A stretch of DNA of 64,000 nucleotides from a virus, in IMG/VR virus record IMGVR_UViG_3300017917_002228, positions 1-64,000 of that record; one strand, written 5' to 3'. Under the pieces are notes generated by a model that saw nothing but the letters and a program-made list of their open reading frames with translations, was not told the origin of the DNA and made no database searches. This document shows positions 37,680-48,109 of the stretch, one piece after another (within the stretch, counting starts at the first letter, position 1; every line of letters begins with the position of its first letter). Position numbers and translations under genes: made by a program.

Positions 37680-37860
37680 AATGCATATGATTCCCCAAGT
37701 TATTATTGACTGCGCTGAGAACTTTGTTAATACAAAGAATGAAAATTCGCGTGTTGCTTACGAGACTAGACTTATTGCTATTAAAGAGTATTGTGACTTT
37801 ATGCTTAAGCAACGTTCTAGCATTACTGATACATTTGGTAATAAGAGAAGCCGTAAATGA
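37666..37860 (+). CDS. Small hypothetical protein
   Basis: A 64-residue protein from ATG 37666 with TGGAGAAG upstream, overlapping gp55 by 14 bases and gp47 by 4. It is helical and basic (PQVIIDCAENFVNTKNENSRVAYETRLIAIKEYCDF). Coupled to recombination and late-transcription genes; function unknown. Confidence 0.55.
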   Translation: MNKNRMHMIPQVIIDCAENFVNTKNENSRVAYETRLIAIKEYCDFMLKQRSSITDTFGNKRSRK

Positions 37861-38921
37861 AAATTGCACTCATTACTGATACGCACTGGGGAGTCCGAAA
37901 CGACTCTCCGGTGATGCATAATTATATGAAAAGGTTTCTGGATAATGTCTTCTTTCCTCAATTGGATGCTAATGATGTGGAGTATATTATCCATCTTGGT
38001 GATTTGGTTGATCGCCGTAAGTTCATTAATTATAGCACTGCGTCACGTCTTCGAAAAGATTTTTTAGATCCAATTGCTCATTCAGGAAGACATTTATACA
38101 TTATTGCTGGTAATCACGACACATATTATAAAAACACAAATGAGCTCAACTCTCTTCGTGAAATATTGTGGGGCTACAATAATGTTTTTATATATGATAA
38201 TGAACCTGATATTATTGAATTTGATGATTTAAAAATTCTTATGCTTCCTTGGATATGCGCAGAAAATAAAGACATATGCATGAAAGCAATTGAGAAAACT
38301 GATGCTCCTATTTTAATGGGTCATCTTGAACTTAACGGCTTTGAGATGTATAGAGGACATATTAATGACCATGGTGACGATCCGAAACTATTTGATAAGT
38401 TCGATATTGTCTGTTCTGGCCACTACCACACTCGCAGTAATAATGGTAACATTTATTATCTTGGGACTCCTTGCGAGTACACTTGGTCTGATTACAACGA
38501 CCCTAAAGGCTTTCATATCTTGGATACTGAGACCAGACAGTTACAGTTTATTCCTAATCCTGATACTCTTTTTGTTAAGCATCATTATGATGACTTAAAT
38601 AAAGAGATGGATGATGTGCTTTTATTCGACGATAAAGACTTTAAGGGTAAATACGTTAAGGTTATTATCCGAAACAAGACTAATCCGTATTGGTTCGATA
38701 CTGTAATTGATCGTATGGAAAAGATTGGTGTAGCTGATCTACAAGTAGTTGAAGATCACTTCCATCTCGATCTTGAAGAAGATTCTGATATTGTAAACGA
38801 AGCAGAAGATACTATGACTATTCTTCGTAAGTTTATTACAGGTCTTCAGTTTAATACGGATAAGAAAAGAGTTGAAAACATTATTCAAAACCTCTATATT
38901 GAAGCACAGGCCATTGAGTAA
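37857..38921 (+). CDS. gp47: Recombination endonuclease subunit gp47 (Mre11-like)
   Basis: A 354-residue calcineurin-like phosphoesterase. The metal-binding motifs are DTHWG at residues 8-12, GDLVDRR near 48, GNHD near 82 and GHYHTRS near 183. With gp46 it resects DNA ends for recombination-dependent replication. The gene overlaps its upstream neighbour by ATGA and precedes gp46 by 6 bases. Confidence 0.93.
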   Translation: MKIALITDTHWGVRNDSPVMHNYMKRFLDNVFFPQLDANDVEYIIHLGDLVDRRKFINYSTASRLRKDFLDPIAHSGRHLYIIAGNHDTYYKNTNELNSLREILWGYNNVFIYDNEPDIIEFDDLKILMLPWICAENKDICMKAIEKTDAPILMGHLELNGFEMYRGHINDHGDDPKLFDKFDIVCSGHYHTRSNNGNIYYLGTPCEYTWSDYNDPKGFHILDTETRQLQFIPNPDTLFVKHHYDDLNKEMDDVLLFDDKDFKGKYVKVIIRNKTNPYWFDTVIDRMEKIGVADLQVVEDHFHLDLEEDSDIVNEAEDTMTILRKFITGLQFNTDKKRVENIIQNLYIEAQAIE

Positions 38922-38927
38922 TATTGC

Positions 38928-40643
38928 ATGATTTTGTTTAATACCATTCGTTGGAAGAACTTTCTATCTACAGGAAATAGCTTTACTGAGATTAATCTCA
39001 ATAAAGCTCCTACGACTCTAATTGTTGGTGAGAATGGTGCAGGGAAGTCAACTATGCTTGACGCCCTTTCTTTTGTTCTCTATAATAAGCCATTTCGTAA
39101 GATCAATAAGCCCCAGCTACTCAATTCGATTAACAAAAAAGATCTTCGGGTCGAGATTGAGTTTAGTATTGGGCCAGGCAAATATAAGATCATTCGTGGT
39201 CTTAAGCCTGCTGTATTTGAAGTTTACCAGAACGGTAAATTACTTAACCAGGATGCTGACAGTAAAGACTATCAGGAGGTTCTCGAGAAGCAAATTCTCA
39301 AACTGAATCATAAGTCTTTCTGTCAGGTTGTGGTGCTTGGTAGCGCGTCTTTTGTTCCTTTCATGCAGCTATCAGCACAGAATCGTCGAGAAGTTATTGA
39401 AGACCTTTTGGATATTCAAATCTTCTCGACGATGAACTCTTTGCTTAAACAGAAGATAAACGATAACAGCAGCACGCTGATGAAGGTCGAATATGATTAT
39501 GATTTGGTCTCCGAAAAAATTAAGATGCAACAAGCACACATCGATGCAATGCAGAAAAATACCGAAGAGCAGATCGCCAAGCTTAAATCCGATTTATCCG
39601 ATTACACCCAGCAGATCGACAGTGAAAAGGCTCTTGCTGACGAAAAGGATAGGGCTATACAATCTCTCCAGATCACAATTAGCGATAAAGAGTTGGTTGA
39701 AAAGAAACATGAAAAGCTTAAAGACCTCGAACGTCAACTCAAAGACAAAATTAAAAAGATACAAAACGAAACAGAGTTCTTCTCCTCTCACGATAACTGC
39801 CCTACGTGCAAACAAACTATTGATGATAGATTTAAGTGTGAAACATTATTGGAGAAAGAAAATCAGAGTCGAGAAGTATCAGACGGTATCGAAAAACTCC
39901 AGCAGGAGATTAAGGCTATCGTGGATAGAATCAGTGAGATATCTCAGATCACTTCTCAAATAACTGATTTGAATATTGAGAAAATTACTCATCATAACAG
40001 CGTGCAAGGCTTAATGAAGCAATGTAAAAAGATTGCTACAGAGATTGAAGAACTACAGAAGAAGTCTGATGATTACGCTATCAACGATGATATGATGAAA
40101 GAGCTTGACGATAAGCTTAACTCACTTTCAAACGAGAAGGCAGAACTGCTTCGTGATAAAGATGCATTACAAGTCGCTTCTATTATCCTAAAAGATACTG
40201 GCATTAAGGCTCGTATTATTAAGCAGTATGTACCTGTTATTAATAAACTAATTAACAAGTATTTGGCTGCAATGGACTTCTTCGTTAACTTTGAACTGGA
40301 TGAGAACTTCAATGAAACTATCAAGTCGAGATTTAGAGACGAATTCTCGTATGCCTCTTTCTCAGAGGGTGAAAAGATGCGTATTAACTTGGCTATACTT
40401 TTCACCTGGCGAGCTGTTGCTAAGCTTCGCAATAGCGCTAGCACTAACCTTCTTATCATGGACGAAGTATTGGACGGTTCATTAGACTCAAATGGTACAG
40501 ATGAGTTCCTAAAGATCCTAAACAACTTGACTATTGATACAAATACCTTTATAATTAGTCACAAAGTTGATACTATGTATGATAAGTTTGCAAACGTAAT
40601 CAAGTTTGAAAAACACAAAAACTTTTCGAGGATGGCAGCATGA
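38928..40643 (+). CDS. gp46: Recombination endonuclease subunit gp46 (Rad50-like)
   Basis: A 571-residue SMC-type ATPase. Walker A GENGAGKS is at residues 34-41, a long coiled-coil surrounds a CPTC zinc hook near residue 292, and the ABC signature SFSEGEKMRINLAI and Walker B LLIMDEVLDGSLD are in the C-terminal part. It partners gp47 in end resection. Length is close to T4 gp46. Confidence 0.93.
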   Translation: MILFNTIRWKNFLSTGNSFTEINLNKAPTTLIVGENGAGKSTMLDALSFVLYNKPFRKINKPQLLNSINKKDLRVEIEFSIGPGKYKIIRGLKPAVFEVYQNGKLLNQDADSKDYQEVLEKQILKLNHKSFCQVVVLGSASFVPFMQLSAQNRREVIEDLLDIQIFSTMNSLLKQKINDNSSTLMKVEYDYDLVSEKIKMQQAHIDAMQKNTEEQIAKLKSDLSDYTQQIDSEKALADEKDRAIQSLQITISDKELVEKKHEKLKDLERQLKDKIKKIQNETEFFSSHDNCPTCKQTIDDRFKCETLLEKENQSREVSDGIEKLQQEIKAIVDRISEISQITSQITDLNIEKITHHNSVQGLMKQCKKIATEIEELQKKSDDYAINDDMMKELDDKLNSLSNEKAELLRDKDALQVASIILKDTGIKARIIKQYVPVINKLINKYLAAMDFFVNFELDENFNETIKSRFRDEFSYASFSEGEKMRINLAILFTWRAVAKLRNSASTNLLIMDEVLDGSLDSNGTDEFLKILNNLTIDTNTFIISHKVDTMYDKFANVIKFEKHKNFSRMAA

Positions 40644-41417: not shown

Positions 41418-42263
41418 ATGTCTAAAATTAAAGTAGCTGAACTGTTTTACTCACTTCAAGGTGAGGGACAGTACTTAGGAACTCCAAGCATTTTTCTAAG
41501 AGTGTTTGGATGTAACTTTCAATGCGCAGGCTTTTCTATGCCTCGCGGTCAAAAATCAGAAGAACGTTTAGCAGTAGATCCTTCTAAGTATGAACGCTAT
41601 GAGGACCTTCCTCTTGTTCACACAGGGTGTGATTCATATGCTTCTTGGGATGTGCGCTTTAAAAAGCTCTCACCAATGCTTTCTGTTCAGCAGATTGTAG
41701 ATAAGATGGAAGAACTACTACCTGATGGTAAGTTTGGTAATGATAAGCATCTTATTCTTACAGGTGGTGAACCTCTTCTTGGATGGCAGCGTTCATATAT
41801 TGATCTCTTTGAAGAGATTAAAAGTCGTAGAATGAATCTTACTCATATTACGTTTGAGACAAATGGCACTCAGCCTCTTCAAGAAGAACTTTTACAATAT
41901 CTAAACACCGGTCCTTTTGATGTGACGTTTAGTGTATCATCAAAGCTTCCTTCATCTGGTGAAGCTTGGGAAGATGCAATTAAACCGGAAATTATTAATC
42001 AATACTATTGGGCTGGAACGTTAACCTATTTTAAATGGGTTGTATCTTCGCAAGATGATTATGATGATGTTATTCGTGCTGTAGAAGAATACGGCAAGGT
42101 GTGTGATATGGATGATATTCCTGTTTACCTTATGCCTGCTGGTGGTACTACAATGCACTATGATAATAATGAGAAGTGGGTTGCTGATCTTGCTATGAAA
42201 AATGGCTGGCGTTACTCGCCGCGTCTACAAGTTCAGCTTTGGAAGAATATGTGGGGTACGTAA
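41418..42263 (+). CDS. queE: 7-carboxy-7-deazaguanine synthase QueE
   Basis: A 281-residue radical SAM enzyme, third step of preQ0 synthesis (carboxy-tetrahydropterin to CDG). Start motif is LFYSLQGEGQYLGTPSIFLRVFGCNFQC and the SAM-binding motif is LILTGGEPLLGW. The cluster cysteines are Cys32, Cys36 and Cys71: the third is separated by a 34-residue insertion rather than the usual CX3CX2C spacing. Similar insertions occur in phage relatives. First gene of the modification island and adjacent to queD. Confidence 0.88.
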   Translation: MSKIKVAELFYSLQGEGQYLGTPSIFLRVFGCNFQCAGFSMPRGQKSEERLAVDPSKYERYEDLPLVHTGCDSYASWDVRFKKLSPMLSVQQIVDKMEELLPDGKFGNDKHLILTGGEPLLGWQRSYIDLFEEIKSRRMNLTHITFETNGTQPLQEELLQYLNTGPFDVTFSVSSKLPSSGEAWEDAIKPEIINQYYWAGTLTYFKWVVSSQDDYDDVIRAVEEYGKVCDMDDIPVYLMPAGGTTMHYDNNEKWVADLAMKNGWRYSPRLQVQLWKNMWGT

Positions 42264-42808
42264 TGGAATACATTGATACAAATATCACTAAATCTCCAAC
42301 AATGGAAGCAAGAATCCCTCGTACATACAAATACGTTTCAACAAAAGAATATCATGATGCATTTCCGTGCGCATATCGTCAATGGAGAGCTGATAGCCAT
42401 TGTAATTTGATTCATGGCTACAGCTTCTCTATGAAGTTTTATTTTGGTACAGATCATCTAGACGTTCGTAACTGGGTTGCTGATTATGGCGGTTTGAAAG
42501 AACTCAAGAAAGTTCTCGAAGATCAGTTTGATCATACACTACTAGTCGCTCAAGACGATCCTCATTTCGATGTATATAAGTTGCTCGAAGAAAAGAACTT
42601 GGCTAAATTAACGGTATTGCCTAAACTAGGATGTGAAGGGCTAGCTGATATGCTTTACAAATATGTAAACGGAGTCTACATTCCTGATATGTGGGGCCCT
42701 GGTGAAGCTGATCGTTTGTGGTGCTTCAGAGTTGAAGTACGTGAAACGCAGGCTAACATGGCATATCGAGTTGGTCATAGAGAATGGAATGAGGATTTGT
42801 TTGAATGA
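42263..42808 (+). CDS. queD: 6-carboxytetrahydropterin synthase QueD-like
   Basis: A 181-residue T-fold enzyme, second step of preQ0 synthesis. It has the C-x-x-x-H-G-x-S-F site (Cys47, His51) and a FDHTLL motif with the catalytic Asp-His pair. The usual HGH zinc motif is HGY here (Tyr53 in place of the second His), so one canonical zinc ligand is changed. The coding sequence overlaps queE by TAATG and folE by ATGA, which supports the assignment. Confidence 0.82.
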   Translation: MEYIDTNITKSPTMEARIPRTYKYVSTKEYHDAFPCAYRQWRADSHCNLIHGYSFSMKFYFGTDHLDVRNWVADYGGLKELKKVLEDQFDHTLLVAQDDPHFDVYKLLEEKNLAKLTVLPKLGCEGLADMLYKYVNGVYIPDMWGPGEADRLWCFRVEVRETQANMAYRVGHREWNEDLFE

Positions 42809-43494
42809 GTATATCTGAAAAGATTAAAAAAAGGATTAAAGATGCAGGCGCTCGCTTTCATGCCAATGATAACATTAGCGAATTTATTCGTGATAATGAG
42901 CGTGATGCACTCATTGAGGAACTAGCAACTAAGTTTGACGGGGTACTTCGTTCACTTATTATTGACGTTGATACTGATCCTAACTCAAAAGGAACAGCAA
43001 AGCGTCTTGCTAAGATGTATGTGAACGAGATTATGGAAGGCCGTTATTGGCCTGCTCCAGCTGTTGCAGCATTTCCTAACGATGGTTCTCACGGCACAGA
43101 TCCTTACAAGGGCATGCTCGTAGTACGTGCAGAACTAAAGTCAATGTGCTCACATCATCATCAGCCAGTTACAGGTACTGCATACATCGGTATCATTCCG
43201 AGCGGTAAAGTAATTGGATTGAGCAAATATATTCGTATTGCTCAGCATTGTGCACGTCGTGGTACATTACAAGAAGAACTGTGCGGTGATATTGCACAAG
43301 CTATTATGGAAGCAACTTCTTCTGGTAACGTAGCAGTTTACATTGAAGCTAAGCACGGATGCTGTGAGAATCGTGGTGTAATGGCTTCGAACAGTACTAC
43401 TCAAACTACAGTGCTCCATGGTATGTTCCACGATGCTGGTGTTAAATCAGAGTTCTATTCGAACATTCGACTACAGAAGTATAATTGCAGTTGA
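42805..43494 (+). CDS. folE: GTP cyclohydrolase I FolE
   Basis: A 229-residue enzyme converting GTP to dihydroneopterin triphosphate, the first step toward preQ0. The zinc and catalytic motifs are MCSHHHQP near residues 112-119 and KHGCCENRGV near 185. TAKRLAKMY and GLSKYIRIAQ are also typical. The gene order queE-queD-folE matches phage 7-deazaguanine clusters. Confidence 0.93.
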   Translation: MSISEKIKKRIKDAGARFHANDNISEFIRDNERDALIEELATKFDGVLRSLIIDVDTDPNSKGTAKRLAKMYVNEIMEGRYWPAPAVAAFPNDGSHGTDPYKGMLVVRAELKSMCSHHHQPVTGTAYIGIIPSGKVIGLSKYIRIAQHCARRGTLQEELCGDIAQAIMEATSSGNVAVYIEAKHGCCENRGVMASNSTTQTTVLHGMFHDAGVKSEFYSNIRLQKYNCS

Positions 43495-43519
43495 TTTTAT
43501 TATGCTCCTATACTAGTAT
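43491..43519 (+). promoter_or_regulatory. Sigma70-like promoter
   Basis: TTGATT (43491-43496), a 17-base spacer, then TAGTAT (43514-43519), 21 bases before the 70-residue gene, with GGTATAGGAG as the ribosome-binding site. It overlaps the end of folE. Confidence 0.6.
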
Positions 43520-43539: not shown

Positions 43540-43752
43540 ATGAAAAACTTGACATCTGAACTGAAAAGCATCTACGGCGAACGTGATCTGAATAAGAAGA
43601 GAGAGCTTGCTAAACGGTTGATCGAAAATTCGCATGCGAAAACGACAACCAAAAATCAAGCTCTCTTTCTTGTTATGAATAAGTTGAGCGTAGATAAGAT
43701 TGACCGTTTTATGACAAATTATGTTTTGTCAGGTGAAGGTATGAAGGTATGA
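43540..43752 (+). CDS. Small hypothetical protein
   Basis: A 70-residue basic helical protein (LTSELKSIYGERDLNKKRELAKRLIENSHAKTTTKNQALFLV), coupled to the nuclease-like gene by ATGA. Coupling suggests a partner or regulator of that nuclease; no family is recognised. Confidence 0.55.
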   Translation: MKNLTSELKSIYGERDLNKKRELAKRLIENSHAKTTTKNQALFLVMNKLSVDKIDRFMTNYVLSGEGMKV

Positions 43753-44273
43753 TCGTTAAAAAAATACCTTATGATGATGATGTTAGGAAAGCTATTTGGC
43801 CTTCCTTCAAATTATCTCTAGAAGAAAAGCATGGTAACTCAGGCGCTATCGGTCAACGAGGCGAAGAGAATGCTATTAATTTAATTCAAGAACATTTTCC
43901 TAATATGTTTCAAGTATGCTACGATCATTCAGAAGACGTAGCAGCTCAATACCGTGGTATAGACTTGACTCTTTTTCATCGACAGGGTATTATGACTGTT
44001 GATGTTAAATCAGGTAAGACTGGTCTATACTGGGATAGAGATAACAAATACTGGTATATTACTCTACGTGAAGACTTTTTTAACAAGCGCAAAAACAATA
44101 ATGCAATCATGCATGTAGGGCCTAAGGGTGATCTTTTTGCGCTCTATAATAAATCAGAAATGGAAAAGTTCTTTATTAGTAATGAAGAGCTTTTTATAAA
44201 AGATGAATATGGCTATCGTTTAAGTATGGATGATTGGCCTGACTTTATACAGCATAACCTCCGGAGATATTAA
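43749..44273 (+). CDS. Putative PD-(D/E)XK nuclease
   Basis: A 174-residue protein with a restriction-endonuclease-like core: helix GQRGEENAINLIQEHF (Glu39/Glu40), then Asp72 in RGIDLTLF and Asp85-Val-Lys87 in MTVDVKSGKTG. This spacing fits PD-(D/E)XK enzymes and Holliday-junction-type nucleases. It lies inside the 7-deazaguanine island directly before dpdA, with TAATG overlap. A role in degrading unmodified DNA is attractive but only inferred. Confidence 0.6.
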   Translation: MIVKKIPYDDDVRKAIWPSFKLSLEEKHGNSGAIGQRGEENAINLIQEHFPNMFQVCYDHSEDVAAQYRGIDLTLFHRQGIMTVDVKSGKTGLYWDRDNKYWYITLREDFFNKRKNNNAIMHVGPKGDLFALYNKSEMEKFFISNEELFIKDEYGYRLSMDDWPDFIQHNLRRY

Positions 44274-45052
44274 TGAAGATAGCACATGAGGCTCCTAAAT
44301 CTATTTTTGCACACGTCCAGCGCAAGACGGATTACGATTATGCGCTAGTGCATTTGTTTGAGACTGATCCAGTCTACTATCGCTTGTTTAAAGATGCAGT
44401 TATTCAAGGACGTGAAGTTATTCTCGATAACTCTATCTTTGAATTAGGTACAGCGTTTAGTGGCGACAAGTATTACAAGTGGATTAACGAACTTAAACCT
44501 ACTTGGTATATTATTCCAGATGTTCTAGGCGATAGAACAGCTACCATGGAAAGCATGGATAGATGGCTTTCTACTTATAAAGTAGAGGGTGTAAAGTCTA
44601 TTGGTGTTGTTCAAGGCAGCAATTATGATGAGGTTGTTAGATGTTATCTTGAACTAGCTCCTAAGGTTGATAAGGTTGCTATCTCATTTGATTATCAGTT
44701 CTTTGTTTCTGGTATTAATAACAAGTACGTAGACTATATGGCAGGTCGTATTAGTCTTATTAAACGTCTTTTAGATGAAAAAATTATTGATGAGAATAAA
44801 CCTCATCATCTACTCGGTTGCGGTCTACCTCAAGAGTTTCAATTTTATCGTGATATGAAATATACATTTATCGATAGCATTGATACATCTAATCCAGTTG
44901 TTCACGGATTAAATCGTATTCGTTATACACCAACAGGCTTGGCAGATAAAGTTCCTACAAAGCTTATTGAATATATGGACGAAGAAGTAACTAAAGATCA
45001 ACTTAAAGATATTGATTACAACATCGCAATGTTTAGAGAATTTTGCAAATGA
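44273..45052 (+). CDS. dpdA: Phage DNA transglycosylase DpdA (TGT-like)
   Basis: A 259-residue TIM-barrel protein of the phage DpdA group, which replaces guanine in DNA by a 7-deazaguanine base. Like tRNA-guanine transglycosylases it has Asp residues at barrel ends (Asp52 in ILDNSIFELG, Asp83 and Asp87 in IPDVLGD), a GVVQG loop at 111-115, and LLGCGLP at 180-186 with FIDSID after it. The zinc-binding tRNA domain is absent, as in DpdA. It is preceded by the nuclease and followed by a formyltransferase with ATGA overlap. Confidence 0.82.
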   Translation: MKIAHEAPKSIFAHVQRKTDYDYALVHLFETDPVYYRLFKDAVIQGREVILDNSIFELGTAFSGDKYYKWINELKPTWYIIPDVLGDRTATMESMDRWLSTYKVEGVKSIGVVQGSNYDEVVRCYLELAPKVDKVAISFDYQFFVSGINNKYVDYMAGRISLIKRLLDEKIIDENKPHHLLGCGLPQEFQFYRDMKYTFIDSIDTSNPVVHGLNRIRYTPTGLADKVPTKLIEYMDEEVTKDQLKDIDYNIAMFREFCK

Positions 45053-45573
45053 AATGGATAGCATTATTCAGCCAAACAGGAAGTGAGATTAACCGTATTG
45101 CAGAAGCATTAGGCCGTTGGCCTGACGCAGTTTTGACTAATAATCGCGATCTTAACGACTGGGAAGATTATATAGATCTTACCGAAACCTCTGTGTTTAT
45201 TTCTAATACAGAAGGTATTAATAATGCACTCCGTAAAGCAGATCGTGCATTTGTAACGCTACACGGATATCTTCGTATTATACCAGCCGATATTTGTAAA
45301 CGTCATAAAATATATAACGGGCACCCTGCTCTTATTAGTGAGTATCCAGAACTAAAAGGTAAAGATCCTCAAGAGCGAGTCTGGTTAGCAGGTAAGGAAA
45401 TTTATCCTAATATAGGTTCTGTAGTACATGAGTGTACACCAGAGCTTGATGGTGGTAAGATTATTAGTGTTGCGATGGATTTTAATCATTGCAATACTAA
45501 GCAAGAGTTGTATAATAAGCTTAAAGAGACTTCTCTCAAAGCTTGGACTTTCTTTCTGGAGACGCGTCTATGA
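45049..45573 (+). CDS. dpdN: PurN-like formyltransferase, candidate dPreQ1 formyltransferase DpdN
   Basis: A 174-residue protein of the folate-dependent formyltransferase fold. Catalytic-type residues are Asn90 and His92 in YNGHPALISEYP, with His127 and Asp134 in VVHECTPELDGGKII, at the spacing seen in PurN. It lies between dpdA and queF. An enzyme of this family (DpdN) has been proposed to formylate dPreQ1 in phage DNA. Purine synthesis is an alternative but no other pur gene is present. Confidence 0.7.
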   Translation: MKWIALFSQTGSEINRIAEALGRWPDAVLTNNRDLNDWEDYIDLTETSVFISNTEGINNALRKADRAFVTLHGYLRIIPADICKRHKIYNGHPALISEYPELKGKDPQERVWLAGKEIYPNIGSVVHECTPELDGGKIISVAMDFNHCNTKQELYNKLKETSLKAWTFFLETRL

Positions 45574-45815
45574 CTAAGAATGCTATTCGTCCTTCTCATT
45601 ATAAGGCAGACGGCTGTAAGTATGAGTGTATTGAAGTAATTGAAGAGTTGTGCGGTCTGTCTAATAATGATCGTTTTACTGATTATAATCGCTTTCAGGC
45701 ATTTAAGTACGTATGGCGTGCTGGTATGAAAGATCCTGTGTTGCAGGATTTAAAGAAGGCTAAACAGTTTATTGAATTTGCTATTGCTTACGAGGAAAAT
45801 AAAAATGTCAAGTGA
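45570..45815 (+). CDS. DUF3310-family protein
   Basis: An 81-residue protein with the DUF3310 pattern: RPSHYKADGCKYECIEVIEEL, then F-Q-A-F-K-Y-V-W-R-A-G-M-K, then DLKKAKQFIEFAI. Such proteins are common in phages and are described as nucleotide-kinase-like, but their role is unclear. It overlaps the formyltransferase by ATGA and queF by 11 bases. Confidence 0.8.
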   Translation: MTKNAIRPSHYKADGCKYECIEVIEELCGLSNNDRFTDYNRFQAFKYVWRAGMKDPVLQDLKKAKQFIEFAIAYEENKNVK

Positions 45816-46728
45816 TATTATTAATCAACTAGCCAGCGTACATCTAGGTAAAGCGGGAGATGGTAGCGTTGTCAAACCGTATGTTACTCCTGATAATATT
45901 GATCCTTCTCTTCTTGTGCCTGTGCCTCGCCATCTTAATCGTACCGGGTACGGTATTGAAGACAATAATCTACCTTTTATTGGGTATGATACTTGGAACT
46001 GCTATGAGTTTAGTACTTTAACAAATAATGGCTTCCCAGTATCCGGTGTCATTCGAATTGTATATTCTTCTTATCAACCAAATATTGTTGAGTCAAAGTC
46101 GCTTAAGCTTTATTTGAACTCGTTCAATATGCATAAGAGTGGCACTACTATTCAAGACGTTATTGAGTTTGTAGAAGACCAGATTGAAGTAGATCTTCAG
46201 GGTATTGGTATTAGTGCATCAGCATGCTTTCATGATGAGACTGCAATCGTCACTCAACCTATTCAGGGTGACTTTTTGACTCTCGAAAACTTCTGCGACG
46301 TTGAGTCTATGACGTTTGACCACTATAATGAAGATCCGGCTATTCTTGAAGTAATTGATAATCCAGACTACTATGATAGTTGGAAGTCGCATTCATTGCG
46401 TTCAAACTGTCGTGTAACTAATCAGCCGGACTGGGGTGATGTTTATATTCATATTGGTGGTGATAAGACAGTAACTCCTGAATCACTCTTGCAGTACATT
46501 GTATCGATGCGTAAAGAGAATCACTTCCACGAAGAAATTTGTGAGTGTATCTACAAGCGTCTTCTCGATACTTTGAATCCAGAAGAGCTTATGGTTGCAT
46601 GTCTCTATACTCGTCGTGGTGGTATCGATATTAATCCTGTACGTGCAAAGAGTAACAGCACTTTGTTTAAGTATGCAGGTAATCTTATTCAACCAGACTT
46701 CCTTAATTATAAGACAATGAGACAATAA
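45805..46728 (+). CDS. queF: NADPH-dependent preQ0 reductase QueF
   Basis: A 307-residue bimodular T-fold enzyme, reducing preQ0 (nitrile) to preQ1 (aminomethyl). Catalytic Cys202 lies in LRSNCRVTNQPDWGDVYI and Asp209 is seven residues later, as in known QueF enzymes. ESKSLKLYLNSFN (96-108) and NHFHEEICE are also conserved. Start ATG 45805 has CGAGGAAAA upstream. Its presence directs the pathway to preQ1 rather than stopping at preQ0. Confidence 0.92.
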   Translation: MSSDIINQLASVHLGKAGDGSVVKPYVTPDNIDPSLLVPVPRHLNRTGYGIEDNNLPFIGYDTWNCYEFSTLTNNGFPVSGVIRIVYSSYQPNIVESKSLKLYLNSFNMHKSGTTIQDVIEFVEDQIEVDLQGIGISASACFHDETAIVTQPIQGDFLTLENFCDVESMTFDHYNEDPAILEVIDNPDYYDSWKSHSLRSNCRVTNQPDWGDVYIHIGGDKTVTPESLLQYIVSMRKENHFHEEICECIYKRLLDTLNPEELMVACLYTRRGGIDINPVRAKSNSTLFKYAGNLIQPDFLNYKTMRQ

Positions 46729-47477
46729 TGAATCTACAACAAGCGCTTGATAAACTTCCCAACACTGATCAGAACGTAGTATCGGTCCTCTCCGGAGGAC
46801 TCGACTCTACTATTATGACTTACATTCTTGTCAAGAAATATGGCAAGGATAGAGTTTTTGCTTTATCATACGACTATGGACAGAAGCAAAAGATTGAATT
46901 AGATATGGCTCGTCGTACTTGTATGTACCTCGGCATTAGTCATAAAATTCTCGATCTAGGTATTTTAGGTGAGATAGTAAAAAATGTTTCTGCTAACATT
47001 AATGGTACTGATGTCGCGATGCCTACCATTAGAGACGTTCTAGGTGATCCTCAACCGAAAACCTATGTACCGTTTCGTAATATGATCTTGAATGCTCTTG
47101 CATTCTCTTATGCAGAAGCAAATAAAGCATCTCATGTTTTTACCGGTCTTCAAGTTCACGATGAGTATGGCTACTGGGATACTACTCAGAAGTTTGTAGA
47201 TGCAATGAATGCAGTTGCTGATCAAAACCGTACTCATAAAGTTAAGATGGAAGCACCTTTTAGTCTACTATCTAAGTATGACGAATTAAAGATTGCTAAT
47301 GAACTAGGTGGAGTTAAATTAGAATATACTCTAACATGTTATAATCCGGATGAACAGGGTCGTTCATGTGGTATGTGTCCATCATGTTCAGAACGTATTC
47401 AGAACTTTATTAAAGCTGGTATGCGCGACCCGATTCCATATTCTATAGGTATTGAATGGGAAAGGTTTGTTAAGTAA
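46728..47477 (+). CDS. queC: 7-cyano-7-deazaguanine synthase QueC
   Basis: A 249-residue ATP-dependent enzyme that converts CDG and ammonia to preQ0. The ATP-binding motif SGGLDS is at residues 22-27, and the C-terminal zinc site is C...CGMCPSC. It overlaps queF on the left and the amidotransferase on the right by TAATG. Length and motifs match free-standing QueC. Confidence 0.93.
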   Translation: MNLQQALDKLPNTDQNVVSVLSGGLDSTIMTYILVKKYGKDRVFALSYDYGQKQKIELDMARRTCMYLGISHKILDLGILGEIVKNVSANINGTDVAMPTIRDVLGDPQPKTYVPFRNMILNALAFSYAEANKASHVFTGLQVHDEYGYWDTTQKFVDAMNAVADQNRTHKVKMEAPFSLLSKYDELKIANELGGVKLEYTLTCYNPDEQGRSCGMCPSCSERIQNFIKAGMRDPIPYSIGIEWERFVK

Positions 47478-48109
47478 TGTGTTCTATCACAGGGTCATTC
47501 TCTAAAGAAGTTGTAGCTGCGCTTGCGCAGCTCAACGCATATCGTGGTCAGCATTCACACTCAGTTTACGTCTTTGAACGTTTTACAAATAGAGTGTTGT
47601 ATGCGCATCGCGATCTAGGCGAACTTAATTTGGAAGATCATAATCTTCCAGATGGTTATATTGTAGTGCATCAACAAGCACCCACTACTGACAATAAGGA
47701 TGAGTCTTCGATTCATCCAGCTCAGATTAACGAAAACCTTTTGTGGCATAATGGTATCGTAAAAGCAGAAGAGATTAAAAATCTACAGAGTGAGTTAGAG
47801 TCTACTATTTCATGGGATACTAAACTAATTCTCCTCAAACTTATGCTATATAATTCAGTAAAGGACATTGATGGTACCTTTAGCTGTTTATGGTATGATG
47901 GAACTAATATGTTCCTATTTCGTAATGAGATTAGTCCAATGTTTATTGACGCGGACGGAAACATTTCTTCTACAAAGTTTCCAGGCTCTGAGCCTATCGA
48001 TCCAAACTTCCTCTGGATTTTTAACCCATCCTATCCTACACTAACAGAATACTTGGAAGAATTTAACACAGTTGAGAACCCTTATTTTTTTGCGGATGAA
48101 CAGAAATGA
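47477..48109 (+). CDS. Class II glutamine amidotransferase-like protein
   Basis: A 210-residue protein with an N-terminal nucleophile, Cys2 after Met (MCSITGSF), RGQHSH, VVHQQAPT and LLWHNGIV, all typical of the class II amidotransferase domain. There is no synthase domain attached. Phages with a fused Gat-QueC make archaeosine-type bases. Here Gat and QueC are separate and adjacent, so it may supply ammonia to QueC or act on another step. The exact role is open. Confidence 0.7.
   Translation: MCSITGSFSKEVVAALAQLNAYRGQHSHSVYVFERFTNRVLYAHRDLGELNLEDHNLPDGYIVVHQQAPTTDNKDESSIHPAQINENLLWHNGIVKAEEIKNLQSELESTISWDTKLILLKLMLYNSVKDIDGTFSCLWYDGTNMFLFRNEISPMFIDADGNISSTKFPGSEPIDPNFLWIFNPSYPTLTEYLEEFNTVENPYFFADEQK

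Follow-up and report, generated by a model that had tools for sequence, protein, structure and literature searches.

A small nuclease gene directly upstream of dpdA in the window (the whole 64,000-nucleotide stretch analysed here, taken from a virus record of 160,495 bases) sits in a slot that, in related phages, holds one of several small predicted nuclease types, each tightly linked to the DNA modification gene and replaceable by nucleases of unrelated fold. The slot is real and well supported; its function, which we infer from gene content and analogy, may be to provide a nuclease that is held off phage DNA by the phage's own 7-deazaguanine modification. A nuclease slot next to dpdA in phages is described nowhere in the literature searched, which lay outside the key reviews of 7-deazaguanine phages. 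The principle is known from T4 and from restriction-modification, and it is the setting and organisation that appear to be new. Base modification in phages is usually seen as a shield against host restriction, and 7-deazaguanines do protect phage DNA in this way (PMC6884629). If a nuclease is tied to the modification gene, however, the modification would be half of a weapon, which would make it possible to foresee which phages break down host DNA, help to account for how modification has spread in phages and point to superinfection exclusion, while small nuclease families that may tell 7-deazaguanine from guanine would be useful reagents. As related backbones occur both without a slot nuclease and with any of three kinds, the question is directly testable.

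The 7-deazaguanine island and its nuclease

The phage is T4-like, with homologues of gp32, 41, 43, 44, 45, 46, 47, 55, 59, UvsX and RNase H, and its gp46/47 homologues adjoin the 7-deazaguanine island (Table 1). DpdA of the window is 51.5% identical (tblastn) to the annotated DpdA of Flavobacterium phage immuto (MW353176). Downstream, dpdA is adjoined by the gene for a formyltransferase-domain protein, an arrangement kept in nearly all related loci, and this constant neighbour suggests that the final base is a formylated or otherwise finished 7-deazaguanine. The ORFs of the nuclease and of its upstream neighbour p70 are both found at the positions given in the preliminary description; they have 4 bases in common (ATGA). 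The nuclease gene lies between folE and dpdA, and one base of its TAA stop codon also belongs to the ATG of dpdA. Among relatives of the window nuclease dN/dS is only 0.10-0.16, a sign of selection and hence of real genes.

Table 1. Features of the window and of related loci; positions are those of the window unless a locus (L) or the whole genome is named.
Feature	Position or locus	Strand	Evidence or remark
gp47 homologue	37857-38921	+	phmmer with T4 protein, 7.9e-49
gp46 homologue	38928-40643	+	phmmer with T4 protein, 3.6e-97
queE-like radical SAM	41418-42263	+	phrog_2076, 7.3e-52
queD	42281-42808	+	PF01242, 1.8e-14; phrog_2389, 9.4e-37
folE, GTP cyclohydrolase I	42805-43494	+	PF01227, 4.3e-38
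Candidate promoter/regulatory element AGTTGATTT-N11-TATACTA	43489-43515	+	unique in window
p70, 70 aa, upstream neighbour of slot nucleases	43540-43752	+	phrog_12669, E=3.1e-5
Slot nuclease, 174 aa, predicted PD-(D/E)XK, NERD-like	43749-44273	+	Pfam, AlphaFold2, conservation
dpdA, TGT-like DNA transglycosylase	44273-45052	+	phrog_19058, 3.3e-50
Formyltransferase-domain protein	45049-45573	+	PF00551, 8.3e-12
queF-like	45805-46728	+	PF14819, 3.4e-27; PF14489, 3.4e-22; TIGR03138, 9.2e-67 (below TIGR03138 cut-off)
queC	46728-47477	+	PF06508, 1e-53
Glutamine-amidotransferase-like, beside queC	47477-48109	+	phrog_12378, 9.6e-43; weak GATase_7
RuvC-like resolvase of the window phage	genome 115931-116479 (L190:13931-14476)		phrog_159, E=3.6e-37
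NERD-type relative	L036:2015-2617		Q-I-K: Gln replaces second catalytic acid
NERD-type occupants	L001, L018, L076, L036		
Short PD-(D/E)XK occupants	L006, L010, L014, L022, L024, L067, L078, L082, many more		
GIY-YIG-like occupants, ~120-135 aa	L013, L017, L021, L029, L047, L071, L081		
Combination of occupants	L010		HNH (1.4e-5) and short PD-(D/E)XK
Combination of occupants	L007		further PD-(D/E)XK-like protein (motif only) and GIY-YIG-like
GIY-YIG protein resembling T4 DenA, p70-dpdA interval	L090:4152-4577; L112:4676-5086		weak similarity
PD-(D/E)XK-like ORF overlapping dpdA	L099:4113-4583		TnsA-like motif, by eye
178-192-aa proteins beside GIY-type slot genes	L092:3204-3758; L112:3715-4251; L099:749-1327		

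The nuclease passes the Pfam NERD model (PF08378) marginally (E=1e-4, 23.2 bits against a gathering cut-off of 22.1). With NERD proteins it shares the GxxGE...D...DxK layout, but it has no other domain, and while a relative 71% identical to it (L001) reaches 25.4 bits, the relatives L091 and L036 stay below detection in Pfam. In a profile-profile comparison with the shorter family (~144 aa) the catalytic residues align (probability 94.6, E=7e-8). The residues singled out earlier, Asp72, Asp85 and Lys87, are correctly numbered, and Glu39 and Gln67, absent from that list, are also invariant: Glu39, Gln67, Asp72 and Lys87 occur throughout the 51 distinct sequences, while Asp85 occurs in 50. The exception is a Gln in L036, where the Q-I-K motif may mark an altered active site or else a copy that has lost activity.

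AlphaFold2, supplied with 33 aligned sequences, predicts a PD-(D/E)XK fold (pLDDT 92.0, pTM 0.87; a model from 2 sequences, with pLDDT 36, was discarded as evidence). Its PDB matches in Foldseek and VIA-align are headed by PD-(D/E)XK and restriction-endonuclease-like folds, namely I-Ssp6803I (structure Z 9.0, with 117 residues aligned at rmsd 3.3 and 11% identity), the Eco15I domain (7.5), the SPARDA nuclease (7.5) and Hjc (7.3), followed at lower scores by DpnI (5.8), PvuII (5.0) and RecU (about 5). The search thus places the protein inside the fold suggested for it in the preliminary description, with E39, D72 and D85-x-K87 conserved, and we regard the predicted fold class as firm. The same predicted fold would suit restriction, homing and resolution, and leaves these three undistinguished. 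A special link to PvuII, raised by a profile search of PDB sequences (E=0.023), was rejected, as PvuII is one of many PD-(D/E)XK relatives. Homologues of the nuclease were not found by tblastn (E<=0.01) in 50,697 annotated phage records, nor was a near DNA match, and no defence nuclease model of PADLOC-DB (2023) matches it at E<=1.

Occupants of the slot, their linkage and exchange

Gene order was compared in 80 loci around DpdA relatives gathered from IMG/VR. Among the loci that group with the window, one of several small predicted nuclease types lies directly upstream of dpdA: a NERD-type protein, a short PD-(D/E)XK protein or a GIY-YIG-like protein (Table 1), the last with an invariant Y, K-x-G, R, E pattern and weak Pfam scores (MUG113 0.13, T5orf172 0.06). 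Combinations of two nuclease genes also occur. In all types the slot gene ends mostly 1 to 44 bases past the start of dpdA. The slot nuclease is dispensable, since in about nine phages of this arrangement it is missing and folE is followed immediately by dpdA. The immuto-like group has no such nuclease before dpdA.

To avoid the bias of starting from dpdA, IMG/VR was also scanned with each nuclease family instead. The short PD-(D/E)XK type was found inside the island at 61 of 62 loci, of which 56 have dpdA immediately downstream and 5 end with the contig just after the folE-nuclease pair; in the one exception (L167), a contig of 119 kb, dpdA and folE are both missing, but QueC is present. All 12 copies of the GIY type adjoin dpdA, and all seven of the NERD type lie inside the folE-dpdA interval. 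Neither PD-(D/E)XK type appeared in 84,980 bacterial and archaeal genomes. The association with dpdA, which the preliminary description had read as a possible restriction-modification pair, is thus tight and recurrent, and the scans show that these families are not scattered mobile genes; the genetic linkage of nuclease and modification gene expected of restriction-modification is found in searches independent of dpdA. Such pattern scans do not extend beyond fairly close relatives, so that part of this linkage reflects common descent.

Replacement of the occupant is seen most directly in three loci with similar flanks, of which L036 encodes a NERD-type protein of 200 aa, L047 a GIY-YIG-like protein of 120 aa and L022 a short PD-(D/E)XK protein. 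Their dpdA genes are 95% (L036-L047) and 87% (L022-L036) identical, and DNA similarity stops at the cassette borders. Purifying selection on the slot nucleases equals that on dpdA, with a median dN/dS of 0.12 for the short type (dpdA 0.13) and, in three pairs, of 0.10 for the NERD type (dpdA 0.18). Distances within the short type track those of dpdA (r=0.83), folE (0.75) and fmt (0.82), compared to 0.80-0.91 among the controls; two copies outside the slot were left out of this correlation, which was 0.69 over 33 loci before their removal. The picture is one of vertical inheritance, broken by cassette exchange.

Function of the slot nuclease

What could be the role of a slot that accepts nucleases of several folds? 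In T4, endonucleases II and IV attack cytosine-containing host DNA and leave the hydroxymethylated DNA of the phage alone; gp46/47 finishes the degradation (PMC6071114, PMC1564403). The reading we favour, and to which we would give about an even chance, is that the slot holds a modification-licensed nuclease directed against host or rival DNA. FolE, QueD, QueE and QueC would make the 7-deazaguanine, and QueF-like, formyltransferase-like or Gat-like enzymes would finish the product. DpdA would then swap guanines of the phage genome for it and so block the nuclease on phage DNA, whereas DNA without the phage 7-deazaguanine (the chromosome of the host, and perhaps plasmids or the DNA of rival phages) would be cut by what is probably a small metal-dependent PD-(D/E)XK endonuclease. 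The gp46/gp47-type exonuclease may then finish the nicked host DNA, as in T4. Since one base modification could block many unrelated nucleases, the slot would be refillable with nucleases of different folds, and by analogy with T4 we infer that it is the place of the nuclease that starts the breakdown, which the phage can bear thanks to its modification. It is possible, though we would not call it probable, that this is a dedicated cassette slot in which modification licenses the use of any small PD-(D/E)XK, GIY-YIG or HNH nuclease on the DNA of hosts or rivals, with the window gene as one allele of a modular phage-borne restriction arsenal under diversifying exchange.

The likeness to T4 DenA (GIY-YIG) or DenB and hydroxymethylcytosine lies in the combination of a small phage nuclease, a genome-wide base modification (here predicted) and gp46/47. 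In contrast to T4, the window nuclease is PD-(D/E)XK and not GIY-YIG, which places it outside the EndoII (DenA) family; the modification, as predicted from the genes, is on guanine and post-replicative; and the gene of the nuclease, whose role against host DNA is putative, is linked to that of the modification enzyme and undergoes exchange. In favour of the reading we prefer, the phage's own genome has gp46/47 homologues, and a search with T4 proteins detected none of DenA, DenB, gp42 or gp56. The T4 analogy drawn at the outset gains from related phages, where a weak EndoII relative lies in the folE-dpdA interval: in a sister arrangement (L090, L093, L112, L113) with extra genes between p70 and dpdA, one protein matches DenA weakly (E=0.001 to 0.013, with 0.001 and 0.0027 in L090 and L112), and the top PDB match of the same L090/L112 occupant is endonuclease II (2wsh, E=0.086). 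Further genes separate the DenA-like gene from dpdA in L090 and L112. It counts against the favoured reading that this link concerns another occupant, in relatives and at a weak score, and not the window protein, as do the nuclease-less relatives and the Gln in place of Asp85 in L036. A search for Endonuclease VII was silent even in controls and was left out of the evidence.

Two bacterial comparisons are also instructive. The dpd islands of bacteria likewise combine genes for 7-deazaguanine DNA modification with nuclease-type genes, but the locus described here is phage-borne, with a single small nuclease for which no similarity to PADLOC models was found. With type II restriction-modification (PvuII, DpnI, Eco15I/NhoI folds) it shares the fold class (Z 4-7.5) and the position of a nuclease beside a protective modification gene, but it has no methyltransferase.

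The main rival, unlikely in our opinion but to be taken seriously, is that the slot is a hot spot of free-standing homing endonucleases, each of which would cut the folE-dpdA junction where a co-infecting relative has no nuclease and be copied into it, with no role in degradation of host DNA. The best single fold match, I-Ssp6803I, is a homing endonuclease, and the homing repertoire includes GIY-YIG, HNH and PD-(D/E)XK classes alike, both points against the reading we favour; unlike I-Ssp6803I, the window nuclease is encoded outside any intron. Relatives without a slot nuclease would represent empty sites, the homing endonucleases of T4 overlap their neighbours too (segF/56 and mobE/nrdA coordinates), a large GIY-YIG-like gene lies just before dpdA in L072, and silent divergence is discordant in some pairs (for L022-L044, dS is 0.26 in the nuclease and 0.56 in dpdA). 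However, the window nuclease has no recognised DNA-binding module; active sites are undecayed in the 51 distinct PD-(D/E)XK sequences, bar one D-to-Q change; and the short type follows dpdA nearly as folE and fmt do. Moreover, unrelated intact nucleases are swapped among the closest relatives, and in 7-deazaguanine phages short PD-(D/E)XK relatives also recur elsewhere, ahead of DNA polymerase A.

We find it improbable that the nuclease acts in recombination or repair, for example as a Holliday-junction resolvase of the Hjc/RecU type on modified phage DNA. The folds of Hjc and RecU are among the matches listed above, and resolvases are often swapped between phages. This reading is weakened by the separate RuvC-like gene of the phage, recognised with PHROGs although RusA and Pfam RuvC searches gave no match; a resolvase would also have no need for a place beside dpdA, and its replacement by GIY-YIG proteins without a common substrate is harder to explain. 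More improbable still is that the protein is a direct helper of DpdA, for example one whose nuclease fold binds or nicks DNA so as to bring DpdA to it or to remove mis-modified stretches, since, despite the immediate coupling to dpdA in all types, the slot folds alternate or are missing while dpdA is conserved, so that DpdA needs no particular partner.

p70, the folE-p70 gap and possible further nuclease sites

The 70-residue protein had been taken for the nuclease's own partner, and this can no longer be maintained: p70 lies ahead of all three kinds of slot gene (NERD, short PD-(D/E)XK and GIY-YIG-like), many short-type phages have a slot nuclease but no p70, and p70 occurs once without dpdA, on a 26-kb fragment (L089). 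It is therefore a member of the island, not dedicated to the window nuclease. It matches the C-terminal part of the 193-aa family phrog_12669 and corresponds to the C-terminal part of the larger gp069 of Campylobacter phage NCTC12673, with no match in Pfam or the PDB. Assignments as PADLOC PDC-S05 (E=0.011, judged too weak) and as T4 UvsW.1 (for which no match was found) were rejected.

The promoter proposed for the pair is putative. The gap of 45 bases from the end of folE to the start of p70 contains no sigma-70 consensus match, but it does contain the element AGTTGATTT...TATACTA, which occurs once in the 64 kb and in none of 100 shuffles. Similar blocks are found upstream of p70 in several related phages and, together with the uniqueness of the element, make a regulatory role plausible; it is possibly a phage promoter of a type that the sigma-70 scan misses.

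In immuto-like phages (L003, L023, L042, L052, L058, L072, L075) a variable, often nuclease-like ORF lies before DNA polymerase A, as if this position were a second nuclease slot. It encodes short PD-(D/E)XK relatives in L023 and L058, GIY-YIG-like proteins in L042 and L075 and an I-E-L-K motif protein in Flavobacterium phage immuto. When pooled, these ORFs gave no match to the nuclease profiles, as the set mixes folds. In a divergent phage (L099) a different PD-(D/E)XK-like ORF overlaps dpdA and a GIY-YIG-like gene lies ahead of folE. The proteins of 178-192 aa beside GIY-type slot genes in L092, L112 and L099 have no convincing Pfam match and are candidates for further effectors.
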